Below are positions 14,343-36,326 of a stretch of DNA of 64,000 nt, piece after piece. The stretch is taken from positions 929,526 to 993,525 of the forward strand of contig NZ_JMIT01000001.1 of NCBI RefSeq assembly GCF_000731675.1. Reading direction: 5' to 3'. The notes below the pieces were generated by a model. That model worked only from the letters and a program-made list of their open reading frames with translations, did not search any database and was not told the origin of the DNA. The DNA is from Pseudomonas capeferrum (GTDB taxonomy: Bacteria > Pseudomonadota > Gammaproteobacteria > Pseudomonadales > Pseudomonadaceae). Both the position numbers and the translations under genes were made by a program. Every line of letters begins with the position of its first letter. Within the stretch, counting starts at the first letter, position 1.

Positions 14343-16244
<1,902 letters not shown>

Positions 16245-21946: not shown

Positions 21947-22149
21947 AAACATCTTAGTCTGATACCTCGCCCAAAACACAAGGCGAATCGGGTGCTTTTG
22001 CCAGAAAAGTACTACATACAGCGAGCGTAAAAGCCCCTATTTAGGCCGATTAATACCTGGCAACTCTCACCGTCGCCGAGAAATAAGTATTTTACTAACC
22101 CCCTGTCGCTCGCCAATTCTCTGCGCTGCACATTTGAGAGGGCGAGTCG

Positions 22150-23466
22150 ATGTTGGTTCATGGCGATAAGGATTTCGAAGTATTGAAGAACGCCGAGCGC
22201 GAACTTCAACAGCAGGTCGGGCATATCCCCGATGCCGGGTTTTATGAGCGAAAGTTGCAAGCAGCCTGGATGCGAGCACAGCACAGCGCTCACTACGCAG
22301 AGATAGGCCCCTACCGTTTTTCGGCGTTTCAGCAATTACCGCTGACGGCCAAGGCCTTGCTTAAACGTCAACCATTGGCGTTCTGTACCGTGGCCCTGGG
22401 CGATGCGGCCAAGTACTACGCCACTACCGGCACCACGGGCGAGCCGACCCCGACCCCGCGCCTGAAACAAGACATCATCTGGAATGCTGTCAGCGTCGCC
22501 GCCCACTGGCGCTCGGTGCTGCGCCCGGGAGCACGGGTGGCCAACCTGATGCCATCGGACATCGTCCCGGTCGGCGACCTGATCGCCAATGTCTGCGAAT
22601 ACCTGGATGTTTCCCATGTGCGGCTGTATCCGTTCACCACCGGCATCACCGACTGGGAGCGGGTGTGCAACACCTTCGACACCTACCGGCCAACGGTGCT
22701 GTTCATCGCCCCCGGCGTGCTGGTACAGCTGACCCGCTACCTCAAGCAGCGGGACCTGTTGCACACCTTCGCCCAGTCGGTGCGCTCGATCATGCTGCTG
22801 GGCGAGGTCAACACTCAGCCGTTTCGTGAACGTCTGGCCCGTGGCTGGCAGTGCGAGGTGTTCGACGCCAGCTATGGCAGCACCGAAACCGGCACCTTGG
22901 CCGCCGTGGGCGAAGACCAGCAGATGCGCCTGGCCACAGCCACCCACTACTTCGAACTGCTGTTGCCCGACGGCAGGCTGGTGACGCCCGCCGAGGGCCT
23001 TACCGGGCGCCTCGTGGTCACCCCACTGAACCTGTATGCCCGCCCGTTGCTGCGGCTGGACACCGGCGACAGCGTGACCATCACCGCGCCGTGGCAGCCC
23101 GGGCAGCTCAGCCCCAGCTTGCTGATCAATGGCCGCGACAGTGACAGCATCATGATTGCGGGTGTCAGCCTTGAGATTCGCGCGGTCGAAGAGGTGGTCT
23201 ACGGCACCTGTGACGCCACCGGCTACGTGATCGAAATCGACCGCCAGAACGACAGCGCCGCCTTGATCCTGGAGCGCGACGTGCACTGGGACAACGCGCA
23301 GGAAAGCCAACTGCAAGCGCAACTGCTGGAACGCTCCCAACAGCTGATGGGCCTGCGCTGGAGCCGCGTGCTGTTCGTCAACAACCTGTCGGCCATCAAC
23401 AAAAGTGGTGGCTCGCAAAAAAGCTGGAAGAAGACCAACCTGCGCTTCGTGGGGGGCAAGCAATGA
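22150..23466 (+). CDS. stand-alone adenylate-forming enzyme (phenylacetate-CoA ligase-like)
   Basis: First gene of a seven-gene operon. The 438-residue protein has adenylation cores: A3 YYATTGTTGEPTPTP (about residue 97), A5 FDASYGSTETGTL (about 237), A7 LLRLDTGDSV (about 300) and a C-terminal lysine in NKSGGSQKSWKK. The overall length and motif spacing are of the PaaK group, which activate carboxylic acids as AMP esters and load CoA or a carrier protein. With an ACP gene three positions downstream, loading a carboxylate onto that carrier is the best guess. ATG 22150 follows GAGAGG (22137-22142). Its stop overlaps the next gene's ATG by 4 bp. Substrate unknown. Confidence 0.82.
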   Translation: MLVHGDKDFEVLKNAERELQQQVGHIPDAGFYERKLQAAWMRAQHSAHYAEIGPYRFSAFQQLPLTAKALLKRQPLAFCTVALGDAAKYYATTGTTGEPTPTPRLKQDIIWNAVSVAAHWRSVLRPGARVANLMPSDIVPVGDLIANVCEYLDVSHVRLYPFTTGITDWERVCNTFDTYRPTVLFIAPGVLVQLTRYLKQRDLLHTFAQSVRSIMLLGEVNTQPFRERLARGWQCEVFDASYGSTETGTLAAVGEDQQMRLATATHYFELLLPDGRLVTPAEGLTGRLVVTPLNLYARPLLRLDTGDSVTITAPWQPGQLSPSLLINGRDSDSIMIAGVSLEIRAVEEVVYGTCDATGYVIEIDRQNDSAALILERDVHWDNAQESQLQAQLLERSQQLMGLRWSRVLFVNNLSAINKSGGSQKSWKKTNLRFVGGKQ

Positions 23467-25178
23467 CCGCACCACGCTTTGCGCAAGGGCGCGGCCTGGG
23501 CAATGGCCAGCCTGACCTGTGGTGCACCTACGCCGCCGTGCGCAGCCTGGCCTGGGTCGAGCGCCTCGACAGCGTCGATACGGCCAGCCTGCACACCTAC
23601 ATTCAGTCCCGCCGCAACCGTGACGCTGGCTTCGCCTGGAGCAAAGGCATGCCGTCCGACGCCTGGGCCACGTTCTATTGCTGCGAAACGCTCAAAGACT
23701 TGGGCATTGCCATCGAGCAAGGCACCCAGACCGCCGAATGGCTGCATACCCTGTTCGACGGTGACGCCTACGCCATGTGCCCGGGGCAGACCGCAGACGT
23801 CTGGGCCACCCACTATGCGGTGCGCACCTTGGTCGAGGTTTGCGATGGCCGCGTGGCCGACCCCGATGCCTTGTATGCCTGGCTGGAAGGGCTGCAGTGC
23901 AGCAATGGCGGCCTGAGCTGGTCGGCGGACTTTGCCCGGCGCAACCTGGCCGATACCCGTGCCTGCTTCTATGGCGTGATGGCTGCGCGCGCGCTGGCTC
24001 GGCAAGGGCTGCCAGCGCCGGCCTGGGACGTGCCGCGGTTGATAGGCTGGTTGCAGGCGCAACAGATGGACGACGGTGGCTTTCGCTTCAGCGAAGCCGC
24101 CGAACGGCCTTGCCTGTGGGCGACCTACCGCGCCACGGCCAGCCTCGCAGCATTACAGGCGCAGCCGCTGGGGCCCGGCGAGTGCGTCGCCTGGATCGAG
24201 GCGCTGCGTGGCCCGAGCGGCGCCTTCGTGCGCTGGCAGGGCTATGACGTCGAAGATGTCTGGGCCGCCTTTTGTGCGGTGGGCTCGCTCAAGGCGCTGG
24301 GTGAGCCGGTCGCACACCTGGCAGATGCCATCGCAAGCTTCATCGCGACCCTGGCGTTGCCTCAGGGTGGTTACACCTATCGGCAGGTCGACGCTGCGGC
24401 TGATGTGCTGACCACGGCGGCCGCAGTGATCGGTGGACAGATGACGGATGCACAGCGGGCGGATGCGCTGCGCTGGATCGAGGGCTGCCAGATGCCGAAC
24501 GAGCCCGGGATCATGTACATGCCGGGGCGTGGGGCCGAAGTGCGTTGCACCAATTGGGGCCTGGCCGCCGGTGCCTTCGCTGACCGCCCCGACGCACGCA
24601 AGGCAGTCGGACACTGGCTGGCCTCGCTGCAGAACCCCGACGGTGGCTTCGGTTTCTGGGAGGGGCGTGGTTCTGACCTGGTGTCCACTGCATCGGCGGT
24701 AGCGATTCTGCAGCAACTGGGTAACAACGCCGGTGTCGACCTTGTCGAGCTCGAAGCCTTTGTCGCCAGCTGCTGCCAGCAGGGCCGCCATGCCGCGTAC
24801 CCGCGTGGGCAGGTCTCTTTGCGCGCCAGCCTGCAGGCATTGATCTGCCTGCGCCATGTTGGCCGGGATGTTCGCGCGCAGGCAAGCGACCTGCTCGCCG
24901 CGCACAAGGTGCGCCAGGGCGGCTTCGCCAACCAGGGGCAGCGCATCCCTGATCTGCTCAGCACCTACCAGGCCGTGGCGTTGGCCGCAGCGCTGGGGTT
25001 GCCGGTCGACCTGGCGCACCTGCGCTTCTTCCTCGACAAGGTGCGCAGCGGCCCGGGGTATGCCTGGTCGCCGCTCTACCTGCAGGGGCACGACGCGTTG
25101 TCGGGCTGCCTGGGGCGCCTGTTGCAGGCGTTTGCCGACGGCAAGTGCCTGCACCTGCCCAACTTGCAGCTGTCGTGA
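23463..25178 (+). CDS. alpha/alpha-toroid protein with prenyltransferase/squalene-cyclase-type repeats
   Basis: A 571-residue protein made of about eleven repeats of some 45-50 residues. Each has a Gly-Gly-Phe-type turn (NGGLSWS, DGGFRFSE, DGGFGFWEG, QGGFANQG) and an inner helix (DVWATHYAVRTL, LWATYRATASL, DLVSTASAVAIL, DLLSTYQAVALA). This is the alpha/alpha barrel of protein prenyltransferase beta subunits and triterpene cyclases. The class II cyclase DxDD acid motif is absent, and I cannot place the zinc ligands of protein prenyltransferases. No signal peptide. Translationally coupled (ATGA) to the ligase before it. It may be a cyclase or hydrolase of new type, or a scaffold holding the intermediate; function unknown. 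Confidence 0.8.
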   Translation: MTAPRFAQGRGLGNGQPDLWCTYAAVRSLAWVERLDSVDTASLHTYIQSRRNRDAGFAWSKGMPSDAWATFYCCETLKDLGIAIEQGTQTAEWLHTLFDGDAYAMCPGQTADVWATHYAVRTLVEVCDGRVADPDALYAWLEGLQCSNGGLSWSADFARRNLADTRACFYGVMAARALARQGLPAPAWDVPRLIGWLQAQQMDDGGFRFSEAAERPCLWATYRATASLAALQAQPLGPGECVAWIEALRGPSGAFVRWQGYDVEDVWAAFCAVGSLKALGEPVAHLADAIASFIATLALPQGGYTYRQVDAAADVLTTAAAVIGGQMTDAQRADALRWIEGCQMPNEPGIMYMPGRGAEVRCTNWGLAAGAFADRPDARKAVGHWLASLQNPDGGFGFWEGRGSDLVSTASAVAILQQLGNNAGVDLVELEAFVASCCQQGRHAAYPRGQVSLRASLQALICLRHVGRDVRAQASDLLAAHKVRQGGFANQGQRIPDLLSTYQAVALAAALGLPVDLAHLRFFLDKVRSGPGYAWSPLYLQGHDALSGCLGRLLQAFADGKCLHLPNLQLS

Positions 25179-25187
25179 GGAGCAGGC

Positions 25188-25595
25188 ATGCCGACCATCA
25201 CTGTTACCTGCGCGCCGCTGCAGGCCATTGAACGCAAGCGCCTGGCCCTGGCCTTCACGCGCCAGCTCAAGGCGCTGGGTGCCGAGCCTGCGCACTGCAT
25301 GGTGTTTTTCAACCCGCTGACGCCTGGCTGCGTGTTCGGCGCGGGCATGCCGTTGCCTACCGTGGACGGTGACGGCGCCGCCTTGCAGTTCTACCTGCGC
25401 ATCACCTTGTCGGTGGCGCGCGATGCAATAGCCCACGCGGTATTGGCTGAGGGCCTGCACCGCTGCCTAGCCACGCACTACCCGGATGCTTTTGTCTATC
25501 TGCAGTTCGACCCGATCCTGCCGGAACAGGTGTTCTACAGCACGGGAGCGGAACTTATCAATGCCGGCAACCCACAAGGAACAACAGGCCCGTGA
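25188..25595 (+). CDS. Pro-1 tautomerase-like protein
   Basis: A 135-residue protein starting Met-Pro-Thr-Ile-Thr-Val, so that Pro-1 would be exposed after Met removal, the catalytic feature of the 4-oxalocrotonate tautomerase superfamily. The chain reads as two beta-alpha-beta units (MPTITVTCAPLQAIERKRLAL ... and LQFYLRITLSVARDAIAHAVL ... VYLQFDPILPEQVFY), the length and layout of the CHMI/MIF-sized members. Such enzymes move protons at keto-enol or imine positions or dehalogenate. AGGAG (25178-25182) precedes ATG 25188. The family call rests on Pro-1 and fold pattern only; it sits in the operon with adenylation and carrier genes. Confidence 0.6.
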   Translation: MPTITVTCAPLQAIERKRLALAFTRQLKALGAEPAHCMVFFNPLTPGCVFGAGMPLPTVDGDGAALQFYLRITLSVARDAIAHAVLAEGLHRCLATHYPDAFVYLQFDPILPEQVFYSTGAELINAGNPQGTTGP

Positions 25596-25876
25596 GCAAC
25601 TTATCTATTGAACAGCGTATTCGTCAGGCATTGGCGCAGTTACTGGGCGACGAAGTCCTTGCCATCGAGAAACAGGATAGTTTTCGCGACTTCATTGGCG
25701 AGCGTTTCGACAGCCTGATGGCCGTCGAAGTCATTACCGCCATTGAAGGCTGTTTTGAAATCGAAGTGGATTACCTGAGTGACGATGTCCGCTACTGGTT
25801 TGAAACCTTGGAGAAGATGGAAACGTTCGTCGCCCAGAAGCTTGAAGATCAATTGACCCTGCAGGCCGCTGAATGA
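25592..25876 (+). CDS. discrete acyl carrier protein
   Basis: A 94-residue acidic four-helix protein. FDSLMAVEVITAIEGCFEIEV (residues about 38-58) is the phosphopantetheine site with the modified Ser in DSL, followed by the helix III region YLSDDVRYW. The start is GTG 25592, which overlaps the previous stop (GTGA); AAGGA (25576-25580) supplies the ribosome site. It should tether the operon's intermediate as a thioester after modification by a phosphopantetheinyl transferase encoded elsewhere. Its end overlaps the next ATG by 4 bp. Confidence 0.88.
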   Translation: MSNLSIEQRIRQALAQLLGDEVLAIEKQDSFRDFIGERFDSLMAVEVITAIEGCFEIEVDYLSDDVRYWFETLEKMETFVAQKLEDQLTLQAAE

Positions 25877-26868
25877 GCAGCGACCATTTGTTCACCACAT
25901 CGGGCTCTACCGGTGTGCCCCGCCAGTGGCTGCGCAGCCACGCGCAGATGACCCAGGAGGCGGCCTTGATACTCGGCCACTGGGCGGCTGGCGCGACCGA
26001 GGTCCTGTCATTTGCGCCGAGCACGCACAGCTACGGCATGATCCTGGGCGAGGTCGGCGCGCAATGGCTGAACGCGCGGCTGCAAGCCTGCTCCCTGGAG
26101 CAGCAGGTATTGCCGCAACTCGATGGCGACGGGCCTTGTGTGATCCTCGCCATTGCCAGTACCTGGCGGCTGTTGCCCACCCTGTTGGCGCGCCTGTCGG
26201 CACGGCGCTCGGTGCTGGTGGTGCACAGCGCTTCGCTGCTGCCCCCCGACGCCTTGGCCATCGTCCAGCGCCTTGCCGGGCCGCAGGTGCGCTTCATCGA
26301 ACTGCTGGGCGCCACCGAAACCGGCGCCATGGCCGTTCGCGAGCTGGATGCGCAAAGCAACGCGGAGCAACCCTGGACGCTGTTGGGCGACGTCACGTTG
26401 CTCAGCCCGATCGGCGCGCCGAGCCCGCTGGAAGTCAGCAGCCCGCGTATCGCCCGGGAGCAGGGGGCTGCGGCACCGGCCAGCCGTCACCGTTGCGATG
26501 ACCTGGTGCTGGCGTTGGACGCCCGACGCTTTCAATGGCTGGGCCGTGCCAGCAGCCTGATCAAGGTCAACGGGGTACGGCTCGACCTGGCACGTGTGGC
26601 CAGCGAGCTGAGCCAGCAACTGCACTGCCCGACCCTGGCCTGCGTGGCGGTGCGCGATGCGCTGCGCGCCGAGGCGTTTGAAGTGCTGTTCAGCTCGGCA
26701 ACGTTGACCGAGCGGGCAGTGCGTGAAGCGTTCACACACTGGCCAGCGCACCACCCGCGACCGGTCGCCGTGCGCCGGGTCGCCCATCTGCCTCTGTCTG
26801 CCACCGGCAAGCCCCAGCCGTGGGCGGCCGCAACTTCTGTCAAGGAATACACCCATGAGCCACGCTGA
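25873..26868 (+). CDS. short adenylate-forming enzyme lacking the usual N-terminal region
   Basis: A 331-residue AMP-binding protein that begins directly at core A3: TTSGSTGVPR occupies residues about 8-17. Later cores are present: A5 LLGATETGAM (about 142), A7 CDDLVLAL (about 207), A8 SLIKVNGVRLDL (about 227) and the A10 lysine LSATGKPQ (about 315). Normal acyl-AMP ligases have 120-180 residues before A3, so this one lacks the N-terminal subdomain. Start ATG 25873 is fixed by its 4-bp overlap with the ACP stop, so this is not a missed start. It may be a minimal enzyme or work with the full-length ligase at 22150. Confidence 0.78.
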   Translation: MSSDHLFTTSGSTGVPRQWLRSHAQMTQEAALILGHWAAGATEVLSFAPSTHSYGMILGEVGAQWLNARLQACSLEQQVLPQLDGDGPCVILAIASTWRLLPTLLARLSARRSVLVVHSASLLPPDALAIVQRLAGPQVRFIELLGATETGAMAVRELDAQSNAEQPWTLLGDVTLLSPIGAPSPLEVSSPRIAREQGAAAPASRHRCDDLVLALDARRFQWLGRASSLIKVNGVRLDLARVASELSQQLHCPTLACVAVRDALRAEAFEVLFSSATLTERAVREAFTHWPAHHPRPVAVRRVAHLPLSATGKPQPWAAATSVKEYTHEPR

Positions 26869-28240
26869 TACCCAGAACACCATCGCCCATTACCTGAACC
26901 ACTGCGGTGCGCCGCTGGACAGTGGCCGCGAGCAACCCGAATACCTTGGCCTCAGCCTGCGCAAGCGCCTCGAACTGCTGCAGCGCAGCCCCGCGCTGGC
27001 GGCTGACTGGGCCGCGCAGTACGACGCCTGGCGCGACCATGCCGACAGCCACTATCGGTGCCTGACCAGCACCCGCCCGGCCGAGGCACCGTGGTTTCGG
27101 CTGGGGGTCAAGGACACCGTGGATGTCGCCGGCCTGCCGACCCGTCTGGGGCTGCGCAGCTACCGTCACTACCCGCAGCGCAGCGCCAAGGCGCTGACCT
27201 GCCTCGATTCGCGCATCGTGCTGACCAGCAAAGTGGCGACCACCGAGTTGAACATTGCGTTCGGCGCAGGCTGTCGCAACCCGCACTACCCGAGCATCGA
27301 TCCGTCAGGGTCCAGTACAGGGTCTGCGGTCTCCGTGGCGGCGGGCCTGTGCGATATTTCGTTGGGTACCGATGTACTCGGTTCGGTGCGCTGGCCGGCA
27401 TCGCACTGCGGCATGGTCGGCTTGCGCATGACCCAGAAGGCCGCCAGCCTAGCCGGGGTATTCCCACTGTCGCCACGCATGGACGCCCTCGGTTGGGTCA
27501 CCCGCAGTGCCGACGACCTCGACTTGCTACTGCCATGGCTGGGCCTGGCACCGCTGCTGGGGGATCAGCAACCGCTCAAGCCGCACTACCGAGTTGGCCT
27601 GTTGGCGCACGCCCTGGACCCGGCACTGACCAGCGCGCCCATGCTCGACATGCTGGGCCAGGCCCGAACCGCCTTTGCCGACCTGGGCATGACGCCGCGC
27701 GACGTCGCCATGCCGGAACTGTGGGCCTGCCGTGGCGATGCCTGGCAGCTGTGTGCGCGTGACGCCTGGCTGGCCTCGGCCGCCTGGGCACGCCGCTTCG
27801 ACAGCGAACTGCACTGGTCGACCCTCAGTGCGCTCAAGGTCGGTGAAGGGGTGAGCGACAGCGATTATCAGCGCATTCATGGGCGCATGGACGCCGTGCG
27901 CGGGGGCATCGATGCCTGGTTCGACAGCGCCCAGGTGGACTTCGTGGTCTTTCCGATGGACCCGAACCGGCCATTCGACCGGCGCAACCCGCAACCGGGT
28001 GACTCGACCATTCCGTCACCCCACGATCACGATTACCCGCAGAAGATCGGCTTCACCCCACTGGCCAGTTTCAGCGGCCTGCCAGCCATCACCGTGCCGG
28101 TTGCCCTCAGTGCCGACGGCAAGGCGCCGTTGGCCATCCAGATCATGGGCCGACGCGACAGCGAGCAGCAGCTGCTGGACATCGCCAAACGGCTACAGGC
28201 GTTGATCGGCCTGCTGCCTACCCGCCGTCTTCAGGTGTAA
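26855..28240 (+). CDS. amidase-signature family amidase
   Basis: A 461-residue soluble enzyme. The Ser-cisSer-Lys triad is recognisable: Lys in LGVKDTVDV (about residue 84), Ser in DPSGSSTGSAVSVAAG (about 150-165) and the nucleophile region DVLGSVRWPA (about 173-182). The family cleaves or transfers amide and ester bonds. In this operon it might release the carrier-bound product, trim an amide made by the adjacent amidotransferase, or form an amide in reverse. ATG 26855 lies 14 bp inside the preceding gene, with AAGGA at 26842-26846; longer in-frame starts would overlap far more. Confidence 0.88.
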   Translation: MSHADTQNTIAHYLNHCGAPLDSGREQPEYLGLSLRKRLELLQRSPALAADWAAQYDAWRDHADSHYRCLTSTRPAEAPWFRLGVKDTVDVAGLPTRLGLRSYRHYPQRSAKALTCLDSRIVLTSKVATTELNIAFGAGCRNPHYPSIDPSGSSTGSAVSVAAGLCDISLGTDVLGSVRWPASHCGMVGLRMTQKAASLAGVFPLSPRMDALGWVTRSADDLDLLLPWLGLAPLLGDQQPLKPHYRVGLLAHALDPALTSAPMLDMLGQARTAFADLGMTPRDVAMPELWACRGDAWQLCARDAWLASAAWARRFDSELHWSTLSALKVGEGVSDSDYQRIHGRMDAVRGGIDAWFDSAQVDFVVFPMDPNRPFDRRNPQPGDSTIPSPHDHDYPQKIGFTPLASFSGLPAITVPVALSADGKAPLAIQIMGRRDSEQQLLDIAKRLQALIGLLPTRRLQV

Positions 28241-28250
28241 GGAGCGAGCC

Positions 28251-30086
28251 ATGTGCGGAATTACCGGCTGGGTGGACTACACCCGCGACCTGAGCCAACA
28301 GCGCCAGGTGCTCGGCGCCATGACCGACACCCTGGCCCTGCGCGGGCCAGATGCCAGCGGCAGCTGGCAGCACCGGCATGCCTTGCTGGGCCACCGGCGC
28401 CTGGCGATCATCGACCTGAGCGGTGGCGTGCAGCCGATGACCTACCGCTTCGCCAGTGGTGAGGAAGTGGCGCTGGTGTATACCGGCGAGGTCTATAACC
28501 ACAATGCCCTGCGCGAGCGCCTGCGCCAGGCCGGGCACACCTTTCAGACGCACAGCGACACCGAAGTGGTGCTGCACGCTTACCTGGAGTGGGGCGAGCA
28601 GTGCTGCGACTACCTCAATGGCATGTTCGCCTTTGCCGTGTTCGACGGGCGCGATGGCCATTTCCTGCTGGTACGTGATCGCCTGGGGGTCAAGCCGCTG
28701 TACTACGCCCGCCACCAGCAGGGGCTGCTGTTCGGCTCGGAGATCAAGGCGGTGCTGGCGCACCCCGACTTCGCCAGTGCCCTGGACGCGGTCGGCCTGG
28801 TGGATGCCCTGAGCCTGAGCCGGGGTACCACCCGCACGGCGTTGCGCGGGGTCAGCGAACTGCCGCCCGGGCATCGGTTGTCCTTGCGGCCCCAGGGGCA
28901 GGTCAGAATCAGCCGCTATTGGCAACTGCAACGCCGAGCGCACGAGGACGACCTGGCGACCACGGTCGAGCGCACTCGCGAGCTGCTCGACAACGCGCTG
29001 GGCGAGCAGCTGCACGCCGATGTGCCGGTCTGCTCGCTGCTGTCCGGTGGCCTGGACTCGACCCTGCTCACCGCCATGGCGCAACAACGGCTTCAGGCGG
29101 AGCAGGGCGGGGCGGTGAACTCGTTCTCGGTGGATTTCGTCGGCCAGGCCGAACAGTTTCAGAGCGACGCGTTTCGCCCGGAGCGCGATCAACCTTACGC
29201 CCTGGCTGCCGCGCAGTACATCGGCAGCCAGCACCAGACCATCCTGATCGACAACCGCGAGCTGGTAGCGGACGCAGCGCGTCTGGCGGTGTACCGCGCC
29301 AATGACAGCGCGGCAACCTTCGGCGACGTGGATACCTCGCTGTACCTGCTGTTCAAGGCCATCCGCGCGCACTCTACGGTGGCAATATCCGGTGAGGCGG
29401 CAGACGAGGTATTTGGCGGCTATGCCTGGTTCCGCGATCCGCAGGCCGTGGCGGCAGCGCGCTTCCCTTGGTTGTCGCGCATGCAACTGCTGCAGCCTGG
29501 GCTGATCAACCCGGAGTTCAACCGTACCTGCGACTTTGCCGGCTATCAGGACAGCTGCTATCACCAGGCCATGGACAGCGTCGAGCACCTGCCGGGTGAC
29601 AGCCCGCTGGAGCGGCGCATGCGCGAGATCTGCCACATGCACCTGCAGCGTTGGCTGCCGATTCTGCTCGACCGCAAGGACCGCCTGAGCATGGCCGCCA
29701 GCCTCGAAGTGCGGGTGCCGTTCACGGACCACACCTTGGTGGAGTACGTGTACAACGTGCCGTGGTCGATCAAGGGCAAGGATGGCGAGGAAAAATGGTT
29801 GCTCAAGCAAGCCAGCGCCGGCCTGGTGCCGCCTGCGGTGTTGCAGCGGCGCAAGAGCCCGTACCCGACGTCGGCCAACCTGGCCTATGAACGCTTCCTG
29901 CGGGGGCGCATCGGGCAGTTGCTGAATGCGCCAGGCCAGCCGGTGTTTCAGGTCATCGACCGTGGCCAGCTGGCCGCCGAGTTGCGCCAGCCCGAGGGCT
30001 ACTTCAACTCGCAGCTGCGGCGCAACAACCTGGAGACCGCCTTGGCGCTCGATACCTGGCTGCAGGAGTATCGCCTGACGCTGTAG
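28251..30086 (+). CDS. asnB: asparagine-synthase-type glutamine amidotransferase
   Basis: A 611-residue two-domain enzyme. The glutaminase domain (about 1-190) starts MCGITGWVD with nucleophile Cys-2 and has RGPDASG, GHRRLAIIDLSGG and YTGEVYNH; the last usually reads YNGE/YTGE in this clade. The synthetase domain has the ATP-pyrophosphatase loop LLSGGLDSTLL (about 263) and SGEAADEVFGGY (about 380). Ordinary AsnB converts aspartate to asparagine, but operon members often amidate or cyclise pathway carboxylates (beta-lactam synthetase, carbapenam synthetase). As last gene of a seven-gene coupled operon it is probably dedicated to that pathway. ATG 28251 follows AAGGAG (28240-28245). Confidence 0.88.
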   Translation: MCGITGWVDYTRDLSQQRQVLGAMTDTLALRGPDASGSWQHRHALLGHRRLAIIDLSGGVQPMTYRFASGEEVALVYTGEVYNHNALRERLRQAGHTFQTHSDTEVVLHAYLEWGEQCCDYLNGMFAFAVFDGRDGHFLLVRDRLGVKPLYYARHQQGLLFGSEIKAVLAHPDFASALDAVGLVDALSLSRGTTRTALRGVSELPPGHRLSLRPQGQVRISRYWQLQRRAHEDDLATTVERTRELLDNALGEQLHADVPVCSLLSGGLDSTLLTAMAQQRLQAEQGGAVNSFSVDFVGQAEQFQSDAFRPERDQPYALAAAQYIGSQHQTILIDNRELVADAARLAVYRANDSAATFGDVDTSLYLLFKAIRAHSTVAISGEAADEVFGGYAWFRDPQAVAAARFPWLSRMQLLQPGLINPEFNRTCDFAGYQDSCYHQAMDSVEHLPGDSPLERRMREICHMHLQRWLPILLDRKDRLSMAASLEVRVPFTDHTLVEYVYNVPWSIKGKDGEEKWLLKQASAGLVPPAVLQRRKSPYPTSANLAYERFLRGRIGQLLNAPGQPVFQVIDRGQLAAELRQPEGYFNSQLRRNNLETALALDTWLQEYRLTL

Positions 30087-30088
30087 GG

Positions 30089-31030
30089 CTACAGGATCAA
30101 AGGGCTCTGCAGGGTGTCGCTGAAGCGCTTCGGCGCGCCCTGGTCGAGCATGGCGATGAAGCTGCCCAAGGCAGGCGAGGCGTTCTGAGTGTTCCAGTTC
30201 ATGTACAGGCCCATGGTCGGGGTCGGCTGGTCCTTGATCGGGCGTATCGGCCGGAACTGCACACGGTCGCGCAGCGTGGAGTAGGCGATCGACTCGGGCA
30301 CCAGGGCCACGCCGAAACCACAGGCCACCAGGCCGATCAAGGTATGGATCTGCGCCGCTTCCTGGACAACCTTGGGGTAGAAACCGGCCGACTCGCACAG
30401 GGCGATCAACTGGCTGTGGTAGCCACTGCCCAGGGCTTGCGGGGTGAACACGAAGTCCTCTTCGGCGAAGTCGCGCAGGTCGACCAGGGGCTGCTGCGCT
30501 TTGGCGTGGCTGGCCGGCAGGGCCATGATGATCTGCTCGTTCAGCAACAGCCGCGATGCGATGATGTCGGGCGGCATCGGCAGTTTACGCATGAAGCCGA
30601 TGTCGGCTTCGCCGGCCAACAAGGCCTTGGCCTGGGAGGCTGAGGGCATCTCCCGGATGGTCAGGCGCACATTCGGGTAGACCTCGCGGAACCTGCGCAA
30701 GGTGGTGAGCAGCGACTCGTAGTACGCGATGGAAATGGCCGTGATGGTCAGCTTGCCGCAGATGCCTTCGGAAACATTGCGCGCGTACTCGATGCCTTGC
30801 TCCAGTTCCTTGAGCGTGCGGTAGGCGGTTTCCAGGAAGGCCATGCCGGCGGCGGTCAGCTTGACCCCACGCTTGTTGCGCAAGAACAGGCTGAAGCCGA
30901 GCTTTTCTTCAAGGCGGTTGATCGCTTGGCTCAGGGGCGGCTGCGCCATGTGCAGGCGGATGGCAGCCTTGTGGAAGTGCAGTTCCTCGGCCACGGCAAT
31001 GAACTGCCTGAGCAAACGTGTTTCGATCAT
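30089..31030 (-). CDS. LysR-family transcriptional regulator
   Basis: A 313-residue LTTR with an N-terminal winged helix (LLRQFIAVAEELHFHKAAIRLHM followed by AQPPLSQAINRLEEKLG) and a substrate-binding C-terminal domain. I chose the start at 31030 (MIETRLLRQF) because AAGGA lies 8 nt upstream on that strand; two earlier Met codons (31045, 31051) lack a site. It is divergent from the SDR/SMP-30 fusion gene across a perfect TGATATC-N5-GATATCA palindrome, so that gene is its likely target. It converges on the end of the asnB operon, 2 bp apart, which makes control of that operon less likely. Confidence 0.88.
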   Translation of the reverse strand: MIETRLLRQFIAVAEELHFHKAAIRLHMAQPPLSQAINRLEEKLGFSLFLRNKRGVKLTAAGMAFLETAYRTLKELEQGIEYARNVSEGICGKLTITAISIAYYESLLTTLRRFREVYPNVRLTIREMPSASQAKALLAGEADIGFMRKLPMPPDIIASRLLLNEQIIMALPASHAKAQQPLVDLRDFAEEDFVFTPQALGSGYHSQLIALCESAGFYPKVVQEAAQIHTLIGLVACGFGVALVPESIAYSTLRDRVQFRPIRPIKDQPTPTMGLYMNWNTQNASPALGSFIAMLDQGAPKRFSDTLQSPLIL

Positions 31031-31130
31031 TCTACGTTCCTTCATCGACATGCAGGGTGCCCGGAAGGCGGCCGGGCCGCCCCTGCAAGGCGGCCATCAT
31101 AGTGCGTGGCACCCGAGTGACAAAGCCCGG

Positions 31131-31149
31131 TGATATCCCTGAGATATCA
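31131..31149. promoter_or_regulatory. LysR-type operator palindrome
   Basis: TGATATC-CCTGA-GATATCA is a perfect 7-5-7 inverted repeat with the T-N11-A geometry of LysR regulators. It is midway between the divergent LysR gene and the SDR/SMP-30 gene. Confidence 0.65.
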
Positions 31150-31227
31150 AAGTTGCATGCTTTTAATATTAAGTCATTGATTTTTTTATTGTTATCGTAA
31201 AAAAGGAGAATCTGAAGGTGCCCCGCA

Positions 31228-32952
31228 ATGCCCATGACAGACCCTTTCAATAATAAAGTTGCCATCATTACCGGTGCCGCCCAAGGGCTGGGCCTGGCCT
31301 ATGCCATGGCGCTGGCCGAGCGTGGCGCCCGGGTGGTGATCAGCGACCTGGGGACTGACCGCGCTGGCCAAGGGCAAGACCCGTCAGCACTGGACCAGGC
31401 GCTCGAGGCCCTGCAGGCCAAGGGCTGCAACGTGGTCGCCCATGCCGGGCAACTGGAAGACGAACGTGAATGCCAGCAGTTGATCGAGCTGGCCATCGAG
31501 CATTTCGGCTCGCTGGACATCCTCATTCACAATGCTGGTTGGGTCGATTACCAGGGGATCGAGGCGCAGGAAGAGGGCTTTCTTCAGCGTGCGCTGGGCA
31601 TCAGCGTGCACGCCCCGGTGTGGCTGGCCAAGCATGCCTGGAAGTACCTCAAGCACTCGGCGGCGCCGCGTGTGGTGCTGACCACCTCGGACCGCGCCAT
31701 GTACCAGCGCTATTCGCAGCCCGGCCTGGTGGCCTACTCGGCCGGCAAGATGGCCCAGGTCGGCATCATGAACGCGTTGAGCATGGAAGGGCAGGAGCAC
31801 GGCATTCTGGTCAATGCCATCTCGCCCGTGGCCAAGACCCGCATGTGGGGCGTGACCGACGCACCGGAAGAGCTCAAGCCCGAATGGGTCACGCCGGGGG
31901 TGTTGTACCTGGCCAGTTCACTGTGCCGTGACACGGGGTACATCCTGCGTGCCAGCAACGGGCAGTTCACCGCCACCCGTTTCACCGAGAACAGCGGCGT
32001 CAGCTACCCGCGCGACCTGGCGCGGGTGCAGGCGGGCAACCTCAAGGAAGTGGCCGAACGCTGGAGCCGTATCAAGGAATGCCACTATGTGCCGGTCAAG
32101 GTCGCCAACACCCGTGCCGACTTGGGCGAAAGCCCGGTCTGGGACGTGCACAGCGGCGCGCTGTACTTCGTCGACATCTCCGGTGGGCGCATCAATCGGC
32201 TGAACCCGGATGGTGAGGTCGAGAGCCTGTATGAATCGGCGGCGCGCATTGGTGCCCTGGCGTTGACCGACAAGGGCAACCTGATCTTCACCGAAGACTC
32301 CAGCGTCGCCATTCTTGACGTGAACGCGCGCAAGGTGCGGCAGTGTTCCGTGCCGGTCCATCCGCGTTCAACCTACCGCTTCAACGATGGCGCCTGCGAC
32401 CCCCAGGGGCGTTTTGTCAGCGGCCTGATGGACGAAGCGCCCAGCGGCAATACCGGTGCCTTGTTCCGTTTCGAGGCACAGCTGAGCGACGAGGTGATCC
32501 ACGACGGCATGGCACTGCCCAATGGCCTGGCCTGGTCGGAAGATGGGCACACCGTGTACTTCGTCGACTCGGTCGCCCGTTCCATCTACCGCGCCGAATA
32601 CCTGCCGGAAGGCCGCCTGGCCGAAGTCGTGCTGTTCGCCGAAACCCCCGCCGAGCTGGGCCGCCCGGATGGCATTGCGCTGGACCGTGAGGGCGGGCTG
32701 TGGGTCTGCCAGTTCAATGGCAGTTGCCTGTTGCGTTACGACCGTAACGGCCACCTGACCGACCAGGTGGTGATGCCGGTGCCACGCCCGACCAGTTGCT
32801 GCTTTGGCGGCGAAGGCATGGCCACCTTGTACATCACCACGGCGCGTTTCGGCATGAACGCGGTTGAACTGCGGCACTATCCGGATGCCGGCGACCTCTA
32901 CGCCATTCGCCCGGAGATCGCTGGCATCCACCGCCACGCCTTCAAGGAGTGA
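31228..32952 (+). CDS. fused short-chain dehydrogenase and SMP-30/gluconolactonase
   Basis: A 574-residue two-domain protein. Residues about 8-255 are an SDR: cofactor loop TGAAQGLGLA, IHNAGWVDY, a Ser in VLTTSDR and the YSAGK pair. Residues about 285-570 are a six-bladed SMP-30/regucalcin propeller with GESPVWD (metal Glu), FNDGACDPQGRF (Asn) and RPDGIALDREGG (Asp). An aldose dehydrogenase yields a lactone and a gluconolactonase hydrolyses it, so the fusion may channel a sugar lactone to an aldonate. Met 3 (31234) is an alternative start; AAGGAG (31202-31207) is rather distant. Divergent from its probable LysR regulator. Substrate unknown. Confidence 0.85.
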   Translation: MPMTDPFNNKVAIITGAAQGLGLAYAMALAERGARVVISDLGTDRAGQGQDPSALDQALEALQAKGCNVVAHAGQLEDERECQQLIELAIEHFGSLDILIHNAGWVDYQGIEAQEEGFLQRALGISVHAPVWLAKHAWKYLKHSAAPRVVLTTSDRAMYQRYSQPGLVAYSAGKMAQVGIMNALSMEGQEHGILVNAISPVAKTRMWGVTDAPEELKPEWVTPGVLYLASSLCRDTGYILRASNGQFTATRFTENSGVSYPRDLARVQAGNLKEVAERWSRIKECHYVPVKVANTRADLGESPVWDVHSGALYFVDISGGRINRLNPDGEVESLYESAARIGALALTDKGNLIFTEDSSVAILDVNARKVRQCSVPVHPRSTYRFNDGACDPQGRFVSGLMDEAPSGNTGALFRFEAQLSDEVIHDGMALPNGLAWSEDGHTVYFVDSVARSIYRAEYLPEGRLAEVVLFAETPAELGRPDGIALDREGGLWVCQFNGSCLLRYDRNGHLTDQVVMPVPRPTSCCFGGEGMATLYITTARFGMNAVELRHYPDAGDLYAIRPEIAGIHRHAFKE

Positions 32953-33892
32953 GCTGATGCATCCGGCTGGCCGGTAACACGGCCAGCTCGCCAAAGCGCT
33001 GCGCTGCATCGATGTAGCGCAGCGCCGACTTGGCGTCTTTCCAGCCCACGTAGCTCATCAACGCCTTCAGCTCCCAACCATTGGCCGTGGCCCAGGTGGC
33101 GAAACCGCGGCGCAGGGAGTGGCCGGTGTACAACGCCGCCGGCACCCCGGCACGCTCCAGCATGCGCCTGAGCAGGCCGACCAGGCTGTTGCTGTTGAGC
33201 GGCGCGTCGCCGAGGTTGCCCCAGCGGTCGAGCTTGCGAAACACCGGGCCATGCGCGATGCCGGCCACTTCCAGCCATTGCAGGTAGGCGGTGACCGGGC
33301 ACAGCGCCTTGAGTGCCGGTGTGCGGTGCTGCACGCCAAGCGCTTCCCGGTCGCCCTTGCTGCGCGGCAGGAACAGCGTGATGCCGACACCCGCCTCGGC
33401 CTGGATATGTTCGATGCGCAGCCGGGCCAGCTCATCACCGCGAAACCCTCGCCAGAACCCCAGCAACAGCAACGCGGCATCGCGACGTGCGCGGCGCAGC
33501 GCGGTCAGGTCATGGTTTTCGAGTGCCTGGCGAGCTTCGTCCTCGAAGCACTGCACCGCCGTTTGCAGGTGCTGCAGCAACAGCGGTGCGGCCTGCTTCG
33601 GAGGGGTCGGGTGCAGGGTGCGGATACCGCGTAGCACCTGGCGCACCAGCGCTGCCTTGGTCGGGTCAGGGAAGCCCTGGCTGATATGCCATTGGCTAAG
33701 GGCCGCAAGGCGTTGGCGCAGGGTGCTCACGGCGTGCTGTCCGGCGTGGTCGGCCAGGTAGCGGGCTACCGCCTCGGCAGTGGCCGGCAGAAAGCCGCCC
33801 CATTGGGTCTCGAAATGGTCGATGGCAGCCTGGTAGCTGCGCCGCGTGTTGTCGCGGGTGGCGGCGCGGACGTAGCGCTCGATGTCGGTCAT
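32942..33892 (-). CDS. tyrosine recombinase (phage-integrase family)
   Basis: A 316-residue site-specific recombinase. An N-terminal SAM-like core-binding domain (about 1-90) precedes the catalytic domain with Arg I in GFRGDELARL (about 160), the box II HSLRRGFAT (His-x-x-Arg, about 262-268) and the nucleophile Tyr in SALRYID (about 297). I chose the start at 33892 (MTDIERYVRAAT); a longer frame to 33979 overlaps the next gene. It stands alone with no flanking repeats, tRNA or phage genes recognised, so it may be a resident chromosomal recombinase. It overlaps the end of the convergent fusion gene by 11 bp. Confidence 0.85.
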   Translation of the reverse strand: MTDIERYVRAATRDNTRRSYQAAIDHFETQWGGFLPATAEAVARYLADHAGQHAVSTLRQRLAALSQWHISQGFPDPTKAALVRQVLRGIRTLHPTPPKQAAPLLLQHLQTAVQCFEDEARQALENHDLTALRRARRDAALLLLGFWRGFRGDELARLRIEHIQAEAGVGITLFLPRSKGDREALGVQHRTPALKALCPVTAYLQWLEVAGIAHGPVFRKLDRWGNLGDAPLNSNSLVGLLRRMLERAGVPAALYTGHSLRRGFATWATANGWELKALMSYVGWKDAKSALRYIDAAQRFGELAVLPASRMHQLTP

Positions 33893-33956
33893 GGTGCGGT
33901 AGCCGGTATTCAGTGGTGACACGATAAACCGAATCGGCGGGTATGTCCTGGCACAC

Positions 33957-36326
33957 TTAGCCGCTGTGGCCCATGGCACTGGTTTCGAGTGTATACGCGG
34001 GTGAACCCGCTGCCACCAAGTCCTCGATGCCGTTGAAAGGCGGGTAGTCGAGCAGTTGCGCCGGCGACAGCGGGCGGCTGAAGTGATACCCCTGAGCGAT
34101 GTCGCAACCGGCGAGCTTCAGGCACACCACTTGCTCGCGGGTTTCCACGCCCTCGGCGACCACCTCCAGGCCCAGGCGCTTGGCCAGGATGATGGTGGAG
34201 GAGACGATCGGGCTGTCGTCGTGGCTGTTGGACAGCGGCGCAATCAGCGAGCGGTCGATCTTCAACTTGCTCAACGGCAGCGAATGCAGGTGGGCAAAGC
34301 CCGCATAACCGCGCCCGAAATCGTCCAGGCTGATGCCCAGGCCCGCGTCGCGCAGGCGGTGCAAGTGGCCGACTGCAGTGCCCTCGGGGTCGAGGATGGT
34401 GGTTTCGGTGATCTCCAGCTCCAGCCGTTGCGCGGCAATTCCGTACCCCTGCAACTGGCTTAGCAGCCGCGTGCTGAAGTCTGCCTGGCGCAGTTGCAGC
34501 GCCGAGACGTTGACCGCCAGGCGTGCTTCACGGCCCTGGGCGTGCCAGCGCGCCAGTGCCTCGCAGGCCAGGCGCAGCACCTCCCAGCCGAGCTCGATGA
34601 TGAAGCCGCTGCGCTCGGCCAGGTCGATGAAGCGGTCCGGGTAGAGCAGGCCGAATTCAGGGTGGTCCCAACGCACCAGAGCCTCGTAGCCCAGCACCTG
34701 GTGGGTATCGAGGCGGATCTGCGGCTGGTAGTGCAGGACGAACTGGTGCTCGGCCAGGGCTGCGCCAAAGGCCTGTTCGAGGGTGAAGGCATGGATATCG
34801 ATCAGGTTCAGCGAGGGGTCGAAGAAGCGGTACTGGGCACGCCCGGCCTGCTTGGCCGAGTACATGGCGGCATCGGCGCAGCGGATCAGGCTGTCGATCT
34901 CCTGGCCATCGCGTGGGCAGATGCTGACACCGACACTGGGGCTGGTGTTGACCTCCTGGCCATCCAGGGCATAGGTGGCCGAGAGTTTCTGCACCAGTTC
35001 GCGTACCCAGGCGTTGATCTGCTCTTCGCTGCGCTGCCCGGCTAGCAGCACCACGAACTCGTCACCGCCAAAGCGCGAGGCCTCGTCGCCGGGCTCCAGC
35101 AGGCGCTGAATACGCCCGGCCACGGCTTGCAGCAGCAGGTCGCCGATCTTGTGACCGAGTGAATCGTTGATCGACTTGAAACGGTCCATGTCGATGAACA
35201 GGATCGCCATCAGCCGGCGCTGGCCCCGTTGTCGGGTCAGCGCAAACCCCGCCACCTCGACGAACTGGCGGCGGTTGTGCAGGCCGCTGAGGTGATCGGT
35301 GGCGGCGGCATGGCTGCTGCGCCGGTGGGCCTCCTCGAGCCGCTCGATCAGTTGCTGGTTGACCTGTTGCGCATGCTCCAGGGCACTGAACGCTTCCTGG
35401 CGTTTGCGCAGCAGGCGCAAGGTCCAGGCCAGGCTGGCGAGAATCATCAGGGTCATGCTGAGGTTCAGCCAGAACTGGCGGGCGTAGGCCTGCGTCGAGG
35501 GCGCAAGAATCGCTTCGTAGCGCTGGCTGACCACCACGCTGAAGCCGCGTTCGGCAACCCGCCGGTACAGGCTCTGGTAGGCGCCACCGGGTGAGTACTG
35601 GGTCAGCGCCCCGGCGTCTGGCCCCGCTTGTGGCAGCCCGGGCTCGAGGTTGTCTGCGGCCATCAGCACGCCACTGGCGTCGATGCGCAGGCGTTCCTGG
35701 CCATCGTCCTGCAGCAGGCGCATCAGGCCCGTGCTGCCCAGGTCGATGTGCTGGAACAGTACCGCCAGGTAGCCGATGTCCAGTTGCACCACGAGGATGC
35801 TGTCGATTTCACGGCCAGGCAGGTCGGTCAGCGGCATTATGAACGGCAGGCGCCAGCTAGGCATGGCGTTGATGCCGGGTGCTTCGGCGCTGGGCAGGAA
35901 GGGTTTGAAGCCATAGCGGGCCACGTGCAACTGCAACTGGCGCAGCCAGTCTTCAGGCAGTGTCGCGGCCTCGTCGGCATGGCTGGCCGACACCAGCCGA
36001 CCCTGCCGGTCGTACAGGCTCATGCGTTTGAACACCGGGTCTTCGGCGAGCAGCCGCGCCAGGTTGGCGTTGCCCTGGCGCAGCGCCTTCATGTCGCCCT
36101 GGGTGACGCGGCCCACGGCCTGGGCCCGGTCGACCAGCTGGCGCAGGCTCTGCGCGACAATGCTGGCCAGGTTCAGGTGTTCGGCAGCCTTGGCCGACAG
36201 TGCATCCTGGCGTGCGGCGGCCTTCTGCGAAACGTGCAGCCCCCAGAGAAAGGCCAGGGTGGCTGCACACAGCATCAGGACCAACAGGCGCAGAAGGCTT
36301 GCAGAAGAGAGCGAGCGGCGAATCAC
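33957..36326 (-). CDS. membrane GGDEF-EAL cyclic-di-GMP enzyme
   Basis: A 789-residue protein. Transmembrane helices at about 11-31 and 285-305 flank a periplasmic sensor region. The GGDEF domain (about 345-510) has intact FGGDEFVVL, but the inhibitory I-site reads EPGD where RxxD is expected, so feedback control by c-di-GMP may be lost. The EAL domain (about 530-770) keeps YEALVRW, NVSALQLRQ, LEITET, LDDFGRGY, KIDRS and AEGVET, the metal- and substrate-binding set, so phosphodiesterase activity is expected. Which activity dominates cannot be told. It is separated by about 80 bp from the Sco/cytochrome gene upstream on the same strand. Confidence 0.9.
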   Translation of the reverse strand: MIRRSLSSASLLRLLVLMLCAATLAFLWGLHVSQKAAARQDALSAKAAEHLNLASIVAQSLRQLVDRAQAVGRVTQGDMKALRQGNANLARLLAEDPVFKRMSLYDRQGRLVSASHADEAATLPEDWLRQLQLHVARYGFKPFLPSAEAPGINAMPSWRLPFIMPLTDLPGREIDSILVVQLDIGYLAVLFQHIDLGSTGLMRLLQDDGQERLRIDASGVLMAADNLEPGLPQAGPDAGALTQYSPGGAYQSLYRRVAERGFSVVVSQRYEAILAPSTQAYARQFWLNLSMTLMILASLAWTLRLLRKRQEAFSALEHAQQVNQQLIERLEEAHRRSSHAAATDHLSGLHNRRQFVEVAGFALTRQRGQRRLMAILFIDMDRFKSINDSLGHKIGDLLLQAVAGRIQRLLEPGDEASRFGGDEFVVLLAGQRSEEQINAWVRELVQKLSATYALDGQEVNTSPSVGVSICPRDGQEIDSLIRCADAAMYSAKQAGRAQYRFFDPSLNLIDIHAFTLEQAFGAALAEHQFVLHYQPQIRLDTHQVLGYEALVRWDHPEFGLLYPDRFIDLAERSGFIIELGWEVLRLACEALARWHAQGREARLAVNVSALQLRQADFSTRLLSQLQGYGIAAQRLELEITETTILDPEGTAVGHLHRLRDAGLGISLDDFGRGYAGFAHLHSLPLSKLKIDRSLIAPLSNSHDDSPIVSSTIILAKRLGLEVVAEGVETREQVVCLKLAGCDIAQGYHFSRPLSPAQLLDYPPFNGIEDLVAAGSPAYTLETSAMGHSG

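Follow-up and report, generated by a model that had tools for sequence, protein, structure and literature searches.

Gene content and layout of the locus

The window analysed here is a stretch of 64,000 nucleotides of Pseudomonas capeferrum (contig NZ_JMIT01000001.1, positions 929,526 to 993,525 of the forward strand). Between its positions 22150 and 30086 lie seven intact open reading frames (ORFs) on the + strand, named A to G, which are treated below as a candidate specialised-metabolite operon (Table 1). The genes are closely packed: A and B overlap by 4 bp (23463-23466), B and C are separated by a 9-bp gap, C/D and D/E overlap by 4 bp each, E and F overlap by 14 bp (26855-26868, with the start of F set at ATG 26855) and a 10-bp gap lies between F and G. 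A preliminary description, made from the sequence alone, had claimed seven same-strand genes with such overlaps and gaps, and the ORF list gives these junctions; its family labels for A, B, D, E, F and G agree with Pfam and NCBIfam.

Table 1. Features of the locus, in window coordinates.
Feature	Coordinates	Strand	Description	Basis
A	22150..23466	+	PaaK-like adenylate-forming ligase, 438 aa	Pfam AMP-binding
B	23463..25178	+	alpha/alpha-toroid protein, 571 aa	Pfam Prenyltrans; predicted structure
C	25188..25595	+	tautomerase-superfamily-fold protein, N-terminal proline, 135 aa	predicted structure; conserved Pro2, R78
D	25592..25876	+	discrete acyl carrier protein, 94 aa	Pfam PP-binding; Asp-Ser-Leu
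E	25873..26868	+	short adenylate-forming ligase, 331 aa	Pfam AMP-binding from profile position 169 of 384
F	26855..28240	+	amidase-signature enzyme, 461 aa	Pfam Amidase
G	28251..30086	+	AsnB-type glutamine-dependent amidotransferase, 611 aa	Pfam Asn_synthase + GATase_7; TIGR01536
LysR-type regulator	30089..31051	-	convergent with G, within insertion	
SDR/SMP-30	31228..32952	+	SDR fused to SMP-30/gluconolactonase-like domain, 574 aa, within insertion	
Operon promoter/regulatory region	21947..22149	+		conserved blocks just upstream of A, 13 Pseudomonas copies

The structure of B was predicted from 39 sequences, with a predicted local distance difference test score (pLDDT) of 92.4 and 24 predicted helices. 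Structural comparison with VIA-align, whose rows for B cover residues 10-286 only, matched this segment to the GGTase beta subunit 6o60_B (Z 29.9, root-mean-square deviation 2.3, 266 aligned residues). In the model, the N-terminal half corresponds to one whole prenyltransferase-beta toroid and the second half repeats the helical pattern; B is apparently a tandem toroid. Over residues 10-286 the fold is shared with class II terpene cyclases (squalene-hopene cyclase, drimenyl diphosphate synthase) and with the beta subunits of protein prenyltransferases; unlike these, B is longer, apparently tandem and encoded in an acyl carrier protein (ACP) operon. Prenyltransferase beta subunits have Asp, Cys and His as zinc ligands and an alpha-subunit partner; a comparison by repeat register suggests that the ligands are replaced in B. 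Terpene cyclisation by B was rejected, because the DxDD motif of class II terpene cyclases is not conserved: D.DD was found in 1 of 53 B homologues (some of them partial), near the C-terminal end.

Protein C had no Pfam match at E 0.1 and no NCBIfam match at E 0.01. Its predicted structure (38 sequences, pLDDT 91.4) has the cis-CaaD/4-OT tautomerase fold, and VIA-align gave Z 15.5 against cis-CaaD/Cg10062. The superfamily hallmarks, a beta-alpha-beta fold and an N-terminal proline, were both found: Pro2 is present in 50/50 homologues, for which start sites with Pro as the next residue had been favoured, and R78 in 49/50. These results bear out the label of a Pro-1 tautomerase-like protein given in the preliminary description. 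With cis-CaaD, Cg10062 and the fused 4-OT tautomerases, C shares the fold, the N-terminal proline and one Arg aligned by hidden Markov model (HMM); identity to tautomerase structures was 14-19% in the 20 best structural alignments. Beyond Pro1, the catalytic set of cis-CaaD comprises His28, Arg70, Arg73, Tyr103 and Glu114. In weak HMM alignments, only R78 of C (aligned to Arg73) was clearly conserved, and His28 and Arg70 apparently were not.

The closest solved relatives of A are PaaK-like ligases (9s3l, 6siw and AjiA1 6wuq; 58-86 bits). T245/E246 are present in 52/52 aligned rows of the A family and K424/K427 in 51/52. The scores of A fell below the cut-offs of both the phenylacetate-CoA ligase PaaK model TIGR02155 (52 bits, cut-off 646) and the BagE/FevW synthetase model (46 bits, cut-off 800; 73 bits for the homologue in L064). 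Ligase E is without the N-terminal part and begins near the phosphate-binding loop. This shortness is the rule across the family (45 of 49 domain matches span 313-341 aa) and the motifs are retained, with T148/E149/D210 in 47/47 rows and K313 in 43/47. The top NCBIfam model for E was 4-coumarate-CoA ligase TIGR02372, at 53 bits against a cut-off of 334.7. The carrier protein D scored 31.8 bits against Pfam PP-binding (cut-off 20.8) and has the Asp-Ser-Leu motif of the phosphopantetheine site, with Ser41 in 49/49 homologues; one phosphopantetheinyl-transferase-family gene was found in the window genome.

The amidase-signature protein F (Pfam Amidase, 127.4 bits) has the Lys-cisSer-Ser triad, and K86, S153, S154 and S177 are present in 33/33 aligned rows. 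The amidotransferase G (TIGR01536, 546 bits, cut-off 267) has the residues of the AsnB type, namely the N-terminal Cys and the SGGLDS motif (C2, S265, G266, G267, D269 and S270 in 24/24). The closest solved protein is the hydroxyamidotransferase 7ylz, by far the best match at 516.7 bits over residues 1-604, compared with 151.8 bits for E. coli AsnB.

Conservation and genomic context in Pseudomonas

Orthologues of B (61-83% identity) were found in 11 of 398 genomes of the genus, the window's own included; 15 other genomes gave weak partial toroid matches only (27-31%). Searches with A (E 1e-40) and E (E 1e-30) returned exactly the same 11 genomes, in line with the co-conservation that had been claimed for the block. 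All ten other carrier genomes keep the order A to G and have LysR and SDR genes adjoining the block, B being split by a contig break in one (G361). Across 28 gene-by-genome comparisons with four relatives, dN/dS was 0.06-0.29 in 27, the value for D against L060 being not computable. An alignment of 13 Pseudomonas copies shows conserved blocks immediately 5' of A, with no such conservation farther upstream; a scan for promoter and terminator consensus sequences gave no excess over shuffles. Because the block is conserved under purifying selection, it is not a chance assembly of genes. One locus, L054 (NZ_VWXK01000007.1, apparently identical to G155:C98), comes from a record labelled Pantoea sp. 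Ap-967 that looks misnamed: its genes are 67-92% identical to those of the window, and G155 is listed in the window's genus.

The glycerate kinase and recombinase-like genes that border the block are direct neighbours in three operon-less relatives (L111, L112, L113), and in the window they are separated by about 11 kb (21947-32941) comprising A to G, LysR and the SDR/SMP-30 fusion gene. Five operon-less genomes were examined in all; the other two (L109, L110) have other surroundings at the operon's place. LysR was not found in the three empty sites, nor was SDR/SMP-30, a 29% SDR match about 5 kb away in L112 being the only trace. The insertion therefore includes LysR and the SDR/SMP-30 gene. 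The operon adjoins glycerate kinase as in the window in 8 of the 10 other carriers, 7 of them with the recombinase-like gene on the opposite side. P. brenneri-type copies (L048, L049) have the operon with LysR, SDR and SMP-30 at a different place, with SDR and SMP-30 as separate genes. LysR adjoins G in all ten other genomes (74-93% identity) and an SDR gene adjoins LysR in all ten. Genome comparison thus places LysR and SDR/SMP-30 in one unit with the block, inserted and moving together. The insertion anticipated in the preliminary description is confirmed by the empty sites, with the correction that the inserted unit is larger than seven genes; the regarding of LysR as an ordinary-metabolism flank has to be given up, since it lies inside the insertion.

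The bordering gene at 32942-33979 (- strand) was read from its sequence as integrase/recombinase-like; as the genomes with an empty site have it too, it probably did not mobilise the block. The P. faucium copy (L043, 2376-4748) has extra ORFs of 365, 204 and 192 aa between glycerate kinase and the cluster exporter.

The wider family and its accessory genes

A genome scan based on the toroid alignment yielded 49 loci; adding L048, the window and two loci from Rhizobium plasmids brought the set scanned with HMMs to 53. As the scan used two peptide patterns from B, the family size is a lower bound. Gene presence was decided by tblastn and HMM scans, rough gene calls having lost genes or produced spurious long ORFs. 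Matches were obtained for A in 53 loci, B in 53, C in 50, D in 49, E in 49, F in 35 and G in 24. The set A-E is complete in 49/53 loci, from Pseudomonas, alphaproteobacteria and actinomycetes; among the incomplete loci, L063, L090 and L095 end at a contig edge, and L100 is rearranged, C lying at another place and neither D nor E being found. Among the 49 complete loci, A-E agree in order and strand in 48, the exception being L067, where only a fragment of E was matched. The seven genes had been put forward as a unit; A-E stand as a near-invariant core, but F and G are variable.

When 48 rows of B were placed in a maximum-likelihood tree, in which 13 of the 45 inner branches are weak, the 13 Pseudomonas copies lie on one side of a branch supported by 100/100, apart from the actinomycete groups. 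Between the window and the Streptomyces type L064-L066, identity is 34-58% across all seven products.

The accessory genes of these loci offer a clue to the substrate, one that the preliminary description lacked. Type I or type II DAHP synthase was detected in 25/34 actinomycete and 6/14 Pseudomonas loci, the window locus not being among them, and a tyrosine ammonia-lyase (TAL)-family gene in 23/34 and 0/14, respectively. One TAL-family protein is BagA-like, at 676.7 bits under a model cut-off of 1000. The exporters found are DHA2 (23/34 actinomycete loci) and a Cmx-like MFS protein (8/14 Pseudomonas loci; one scored 205 bits, cut-off 400). In the window copy neither DAHP synthase nor exporter lies alongside, and both adjoin A in some relatives' copies. 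Three AKR matches counted for Pseudomonas are flanking genes outside the cluster. An ammonia-lyase-family gene of Amycolatopsis oliviviridis (L078, 19071-20495) scored 788.5 bits, above the tyrosine 2,3-aminomutase cut-off of 501, which suggests, on the strength of this model match, that beta-tyrosine may be made by that cluster. L096 and L072 have one gene each with similarly low scores to TAL representatives.

A Streptomyces/Actinokineospora type (L074, L075, L080, L081, L083, L086, L087, L089) carries an AroG-like DAHP synthase (detected in all but L081), SDR and aldehyde-dehydrogenase-like genes, a third PaaK-like ligase, an allene-oxide-cyclase/dirigent-like barrel protein and, except in L086 and L087, a TAL-family gene, a set reminiscent of a monolignol-type route. 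In Mangrovihabitans (L073, 3606-4880, - strand) a diaminobutyrate transaminase gene stands beside ATP-grasp and PaaK2 genes.

Rhizobium rhizogenes plasmids pAtK84c and pC5.7c carry A-E plus F in the same order as the window, at 19-43% identity for pAtK84c, lowest for C. In this cassette GNAT replaces G, and PaaK2, SDR and ATP-grasp are added. On pAtK84c (CP000631, from the crown-gall biocontrol strain K84; L038, 6586-19319) A-F lie with MFS, LysR, a PaaK2-SDR fusion and ATP-grasp between transposase genes. The annotated order is the same on pColt5.8a (L040), with an IS256 transposase (14772-15971) separating the ACP gene D from the AMP-ligase gene E, whose annotated product is shorter than that of pC5.7c. 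A plasmid search with C alone gave no match, though C-like genes are detected there by HMM. No product assignment for the Rhizobium cassette was found in the open-access literature.

Genes F and G are linked in their distribution: F is present in 23 of the 24 G-bearing loci, the remaining one ending at a contig edge. The 12 F loci without G have PaaK2 in 11, with ATP-grasp also in 6 of those 11, so that 34/35 F-bearing loci (not L093) also carry G, ATP-grasp or PaaK2. Since F tends to accompany amide- or acyl-ligating partners, it may act on an amide; this distribution weakly suggests such a role rather than chain release.

Proposed pathway, alternatives and significance

No described pathway with this gene set was found in the open-access literature, where most subscription journals are missing; within that scope, the result agrees with the preliminary statement that no characterised one is known. 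Several named systems were compared. The PaaK-like ligases 6siw and AjiA1 are presumably benzoxazole-pathway enzymes, and to our knowledge those pathways are without B and C. Nor do we know of a toroid, tautomerase or AsnB gene in the bagremycin/ferroverdin clusters. That system (BagA, BagE/FevW; PMC6692506) brings together TAL, a DAHP-synthase-type aldolase and a PaaK-family enzyme, as do many of the actinomycete relatives; unlike the ACP-bearing operon, its paper has 'acyl carrier' nowhere in the main text. The bagremycin/ferroverdin pathway was rejected on the model cut-offs and on the absence of that term from the main text of PMC6692506. Cispentacin was rejected because D scored just 17.5 bits against AmcB (cut-off 80). 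Agrocin 434 was considered because pAtK84c carries the cassette; no gene assignment for it was found in the open-access literature, and one review assigns it, in the part consulted, to pAtK84a (PMC4231840). The logic of the operon (activation, ACP loading, amidation) resembles known pathways, but the gene set matches none of the named pathways tested.

The whole is best explained, with a probability of about one half, by an intact and selected specialised-metabolite operon belonging to a widespread orphan family with the core A-B-C-D-E. This reading draws on the folds and families assigned to the proteins, on the conservation of active-site residues, and on co-occurrence, colinearity and joint insertion with LysR and SDR/SMP-30, all established from sequence comparison and predicted structures. 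In the proposed pathway, A and/or the short ligase E would adenylate a carboxylic acid and load it onto ACP D; for the actinomycete relatives an acid derived from tyrosine, either a hydroxycinnamate or beta-tyrosine, is probable. Once on the ACP, the acyl chain may be rearranged, cyclised or condensed by the double toroid B and the Pro-1 tautomerase-fold protein C. The TsnB9-like G would use glutamine and ATP to amidate a free carboxylate on the product, and an amide group in an intermediate may be the target of F, for deprotection or acyl transfer. Expression would be under LysR control, and tailoring or detoxification of the product may fall to the SDR/SMP-30 protein. More tentatively, and with the odds against it, B could be the founder of a new carrier-protein-dependent enzyme class, in which a tandem toroid and a Pro-1 tautomerase-fold partner carry out a bond-forming step on acyl-ACP.

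Several observations weigh against parts of this explanation. The roles proposed for B, C and F are drawn from fold and context; A and E fall far short of the named models for phenylacetate ligase and coumarate ligase; and G scores as an ordinary asparagine synthase too. The link of F to PaaK2 is loose, as three F-less loci (L077, L079, L085) have PaaK2 too. TAL was not found in 11 of the 34 actinomycete loci. It was also not found in the window genome, where the sole ammonia-lyase match (35%) has a neighbour that we read as urocanase, together with a Ser-His pair that we take to be a feature of histidine ammonia-lyase; because of the urocanase-like neighbour it was taken as HutH. The one class II DAHP synthase match of that genome (44% identical) passes the general model and is not cluster-linked. 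With TAL not found and DAHP synthase not cluster-linked, precursor supply to the window copy could be insufficient, and the tyrosine-derived acid is not extended to Pseudomonas. Tyrosine as a Pseudomonas substrate by way of the organism's own TAL was accordingly rejected, only HutH having been found in the window genome. Finally, LysR, SDR and SMP-30 occur without the operon in L107, LysR and SDR in L106 and SDR alone in L108, and may therefore be a separate module.

Among the alternatives, a conjugate pathway is unlikely, though it has the most to be said for it: A and E would activate two acids, E being like the adenylation domain of a nonribosomal peptide synthetase (NRPS), B would join them on the ACP, and F and G (ATP-grasp or PaaK2 elsewhere) would form or exchange amides, to give an acyl-amino-acid or dipeptide-like amide instead of a simple one. 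It is favoured by the match of E to the amino-acid adenylation domain model (45.8 bits) and, weakly, to prolyl and NRPS adenylation domains in the PDB, by the near-constant company of F with G, ATP-grasp or PaaK2, by the Rhizobium ATP-grasp protein, which resembles DdaF (dapdiamide A synthase; 195.9 bits, cut-off 840), and by the diaminobutyrate transaminase of L073. However, every match of E is weak, no condensation domain was recognised in the core by Pfam or NCBIfam, and B is without known condensing activity.

The affinity of G to 7ylz raises the prospect of a hydroxamate pathway, in which a TsnB9-type G would move hydroxylamine from glutamyl hydroxamate to the acid and so make a metal-chelating hydroxamate. 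The trichostatin enzymes TsnB9/SaHAT (PDB 7ylz) and also Dip5 are, like G, of the AsnB type, and act on free natural-product acids according to the parts of the sources consulted (PMC13418202, PMC13122635): SaHAT, a TsnB9 homologue, turns free benzoic acid into benzohydroxamic acid (PMC13418202), but for the related amidotransferase Dip5 the proposed product is a plain amide (PMC13122635). No TsnB6/TsnB7-like amidooxygenase partner was recognised among the annotated cluster proteins, no sequence search having been aimed at these families; amide formation by G is for that reason the simpler reading, and the hydroxamate route is improbable.

We give similarly little credence to the view of the window copy as a cluster in decay, deprived of precursor and export genes and making nothing at present. 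DAHP synthase and the Cmx-like MFS occur together in 6 of the 14 Pseudomonas loci and the MFS alone in 2 more, and neither is present here, but the seven ORFs are intact, purifying selection is strong and the promoter is conserved. Least probable of all is a catabolic operon, in which F would hydrolyse a plant-derived amide or aromatic acid that A and E activate for degradation beside LysR and SDR/SMP-30: such regulators, SDR and SMP-30 proteins are presumably common in catabolic loci, and the PaaK-like and amidase families often catabolic, but the operon's own ACP and its glutamine-dependent amidotransferase serve synthesis, not breakdown, the clusters of relatives also have DAHP synthase, TAL and exporters, and only 11 of the 398 genomes of the genus carry the operon.

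For the specialised-metabolite operon preferred here, the tyrosine and shikimate genes of the relatives narrow the first substrates to try, and the action of the double toroid and the Pro-1 tautomerase-fold protein on acyl-ACP is a clear and testable question of enzymology. As multidomain enzymes of the polyketide synthase (PKS) or NRPS kind are missing from the core, cluster-finding rules that rely on them may overlook it. If B does represent a new enzyme class, the logic of the five-gene core A-E would stand apart from the chemistry of PKS and NRPS systems. The recurrence of this core in gammaproteobacteria, alphaproteobacteria and actinomycetes, with varied tailoring genes, is the usual sign of a productive natural-product scaffold.

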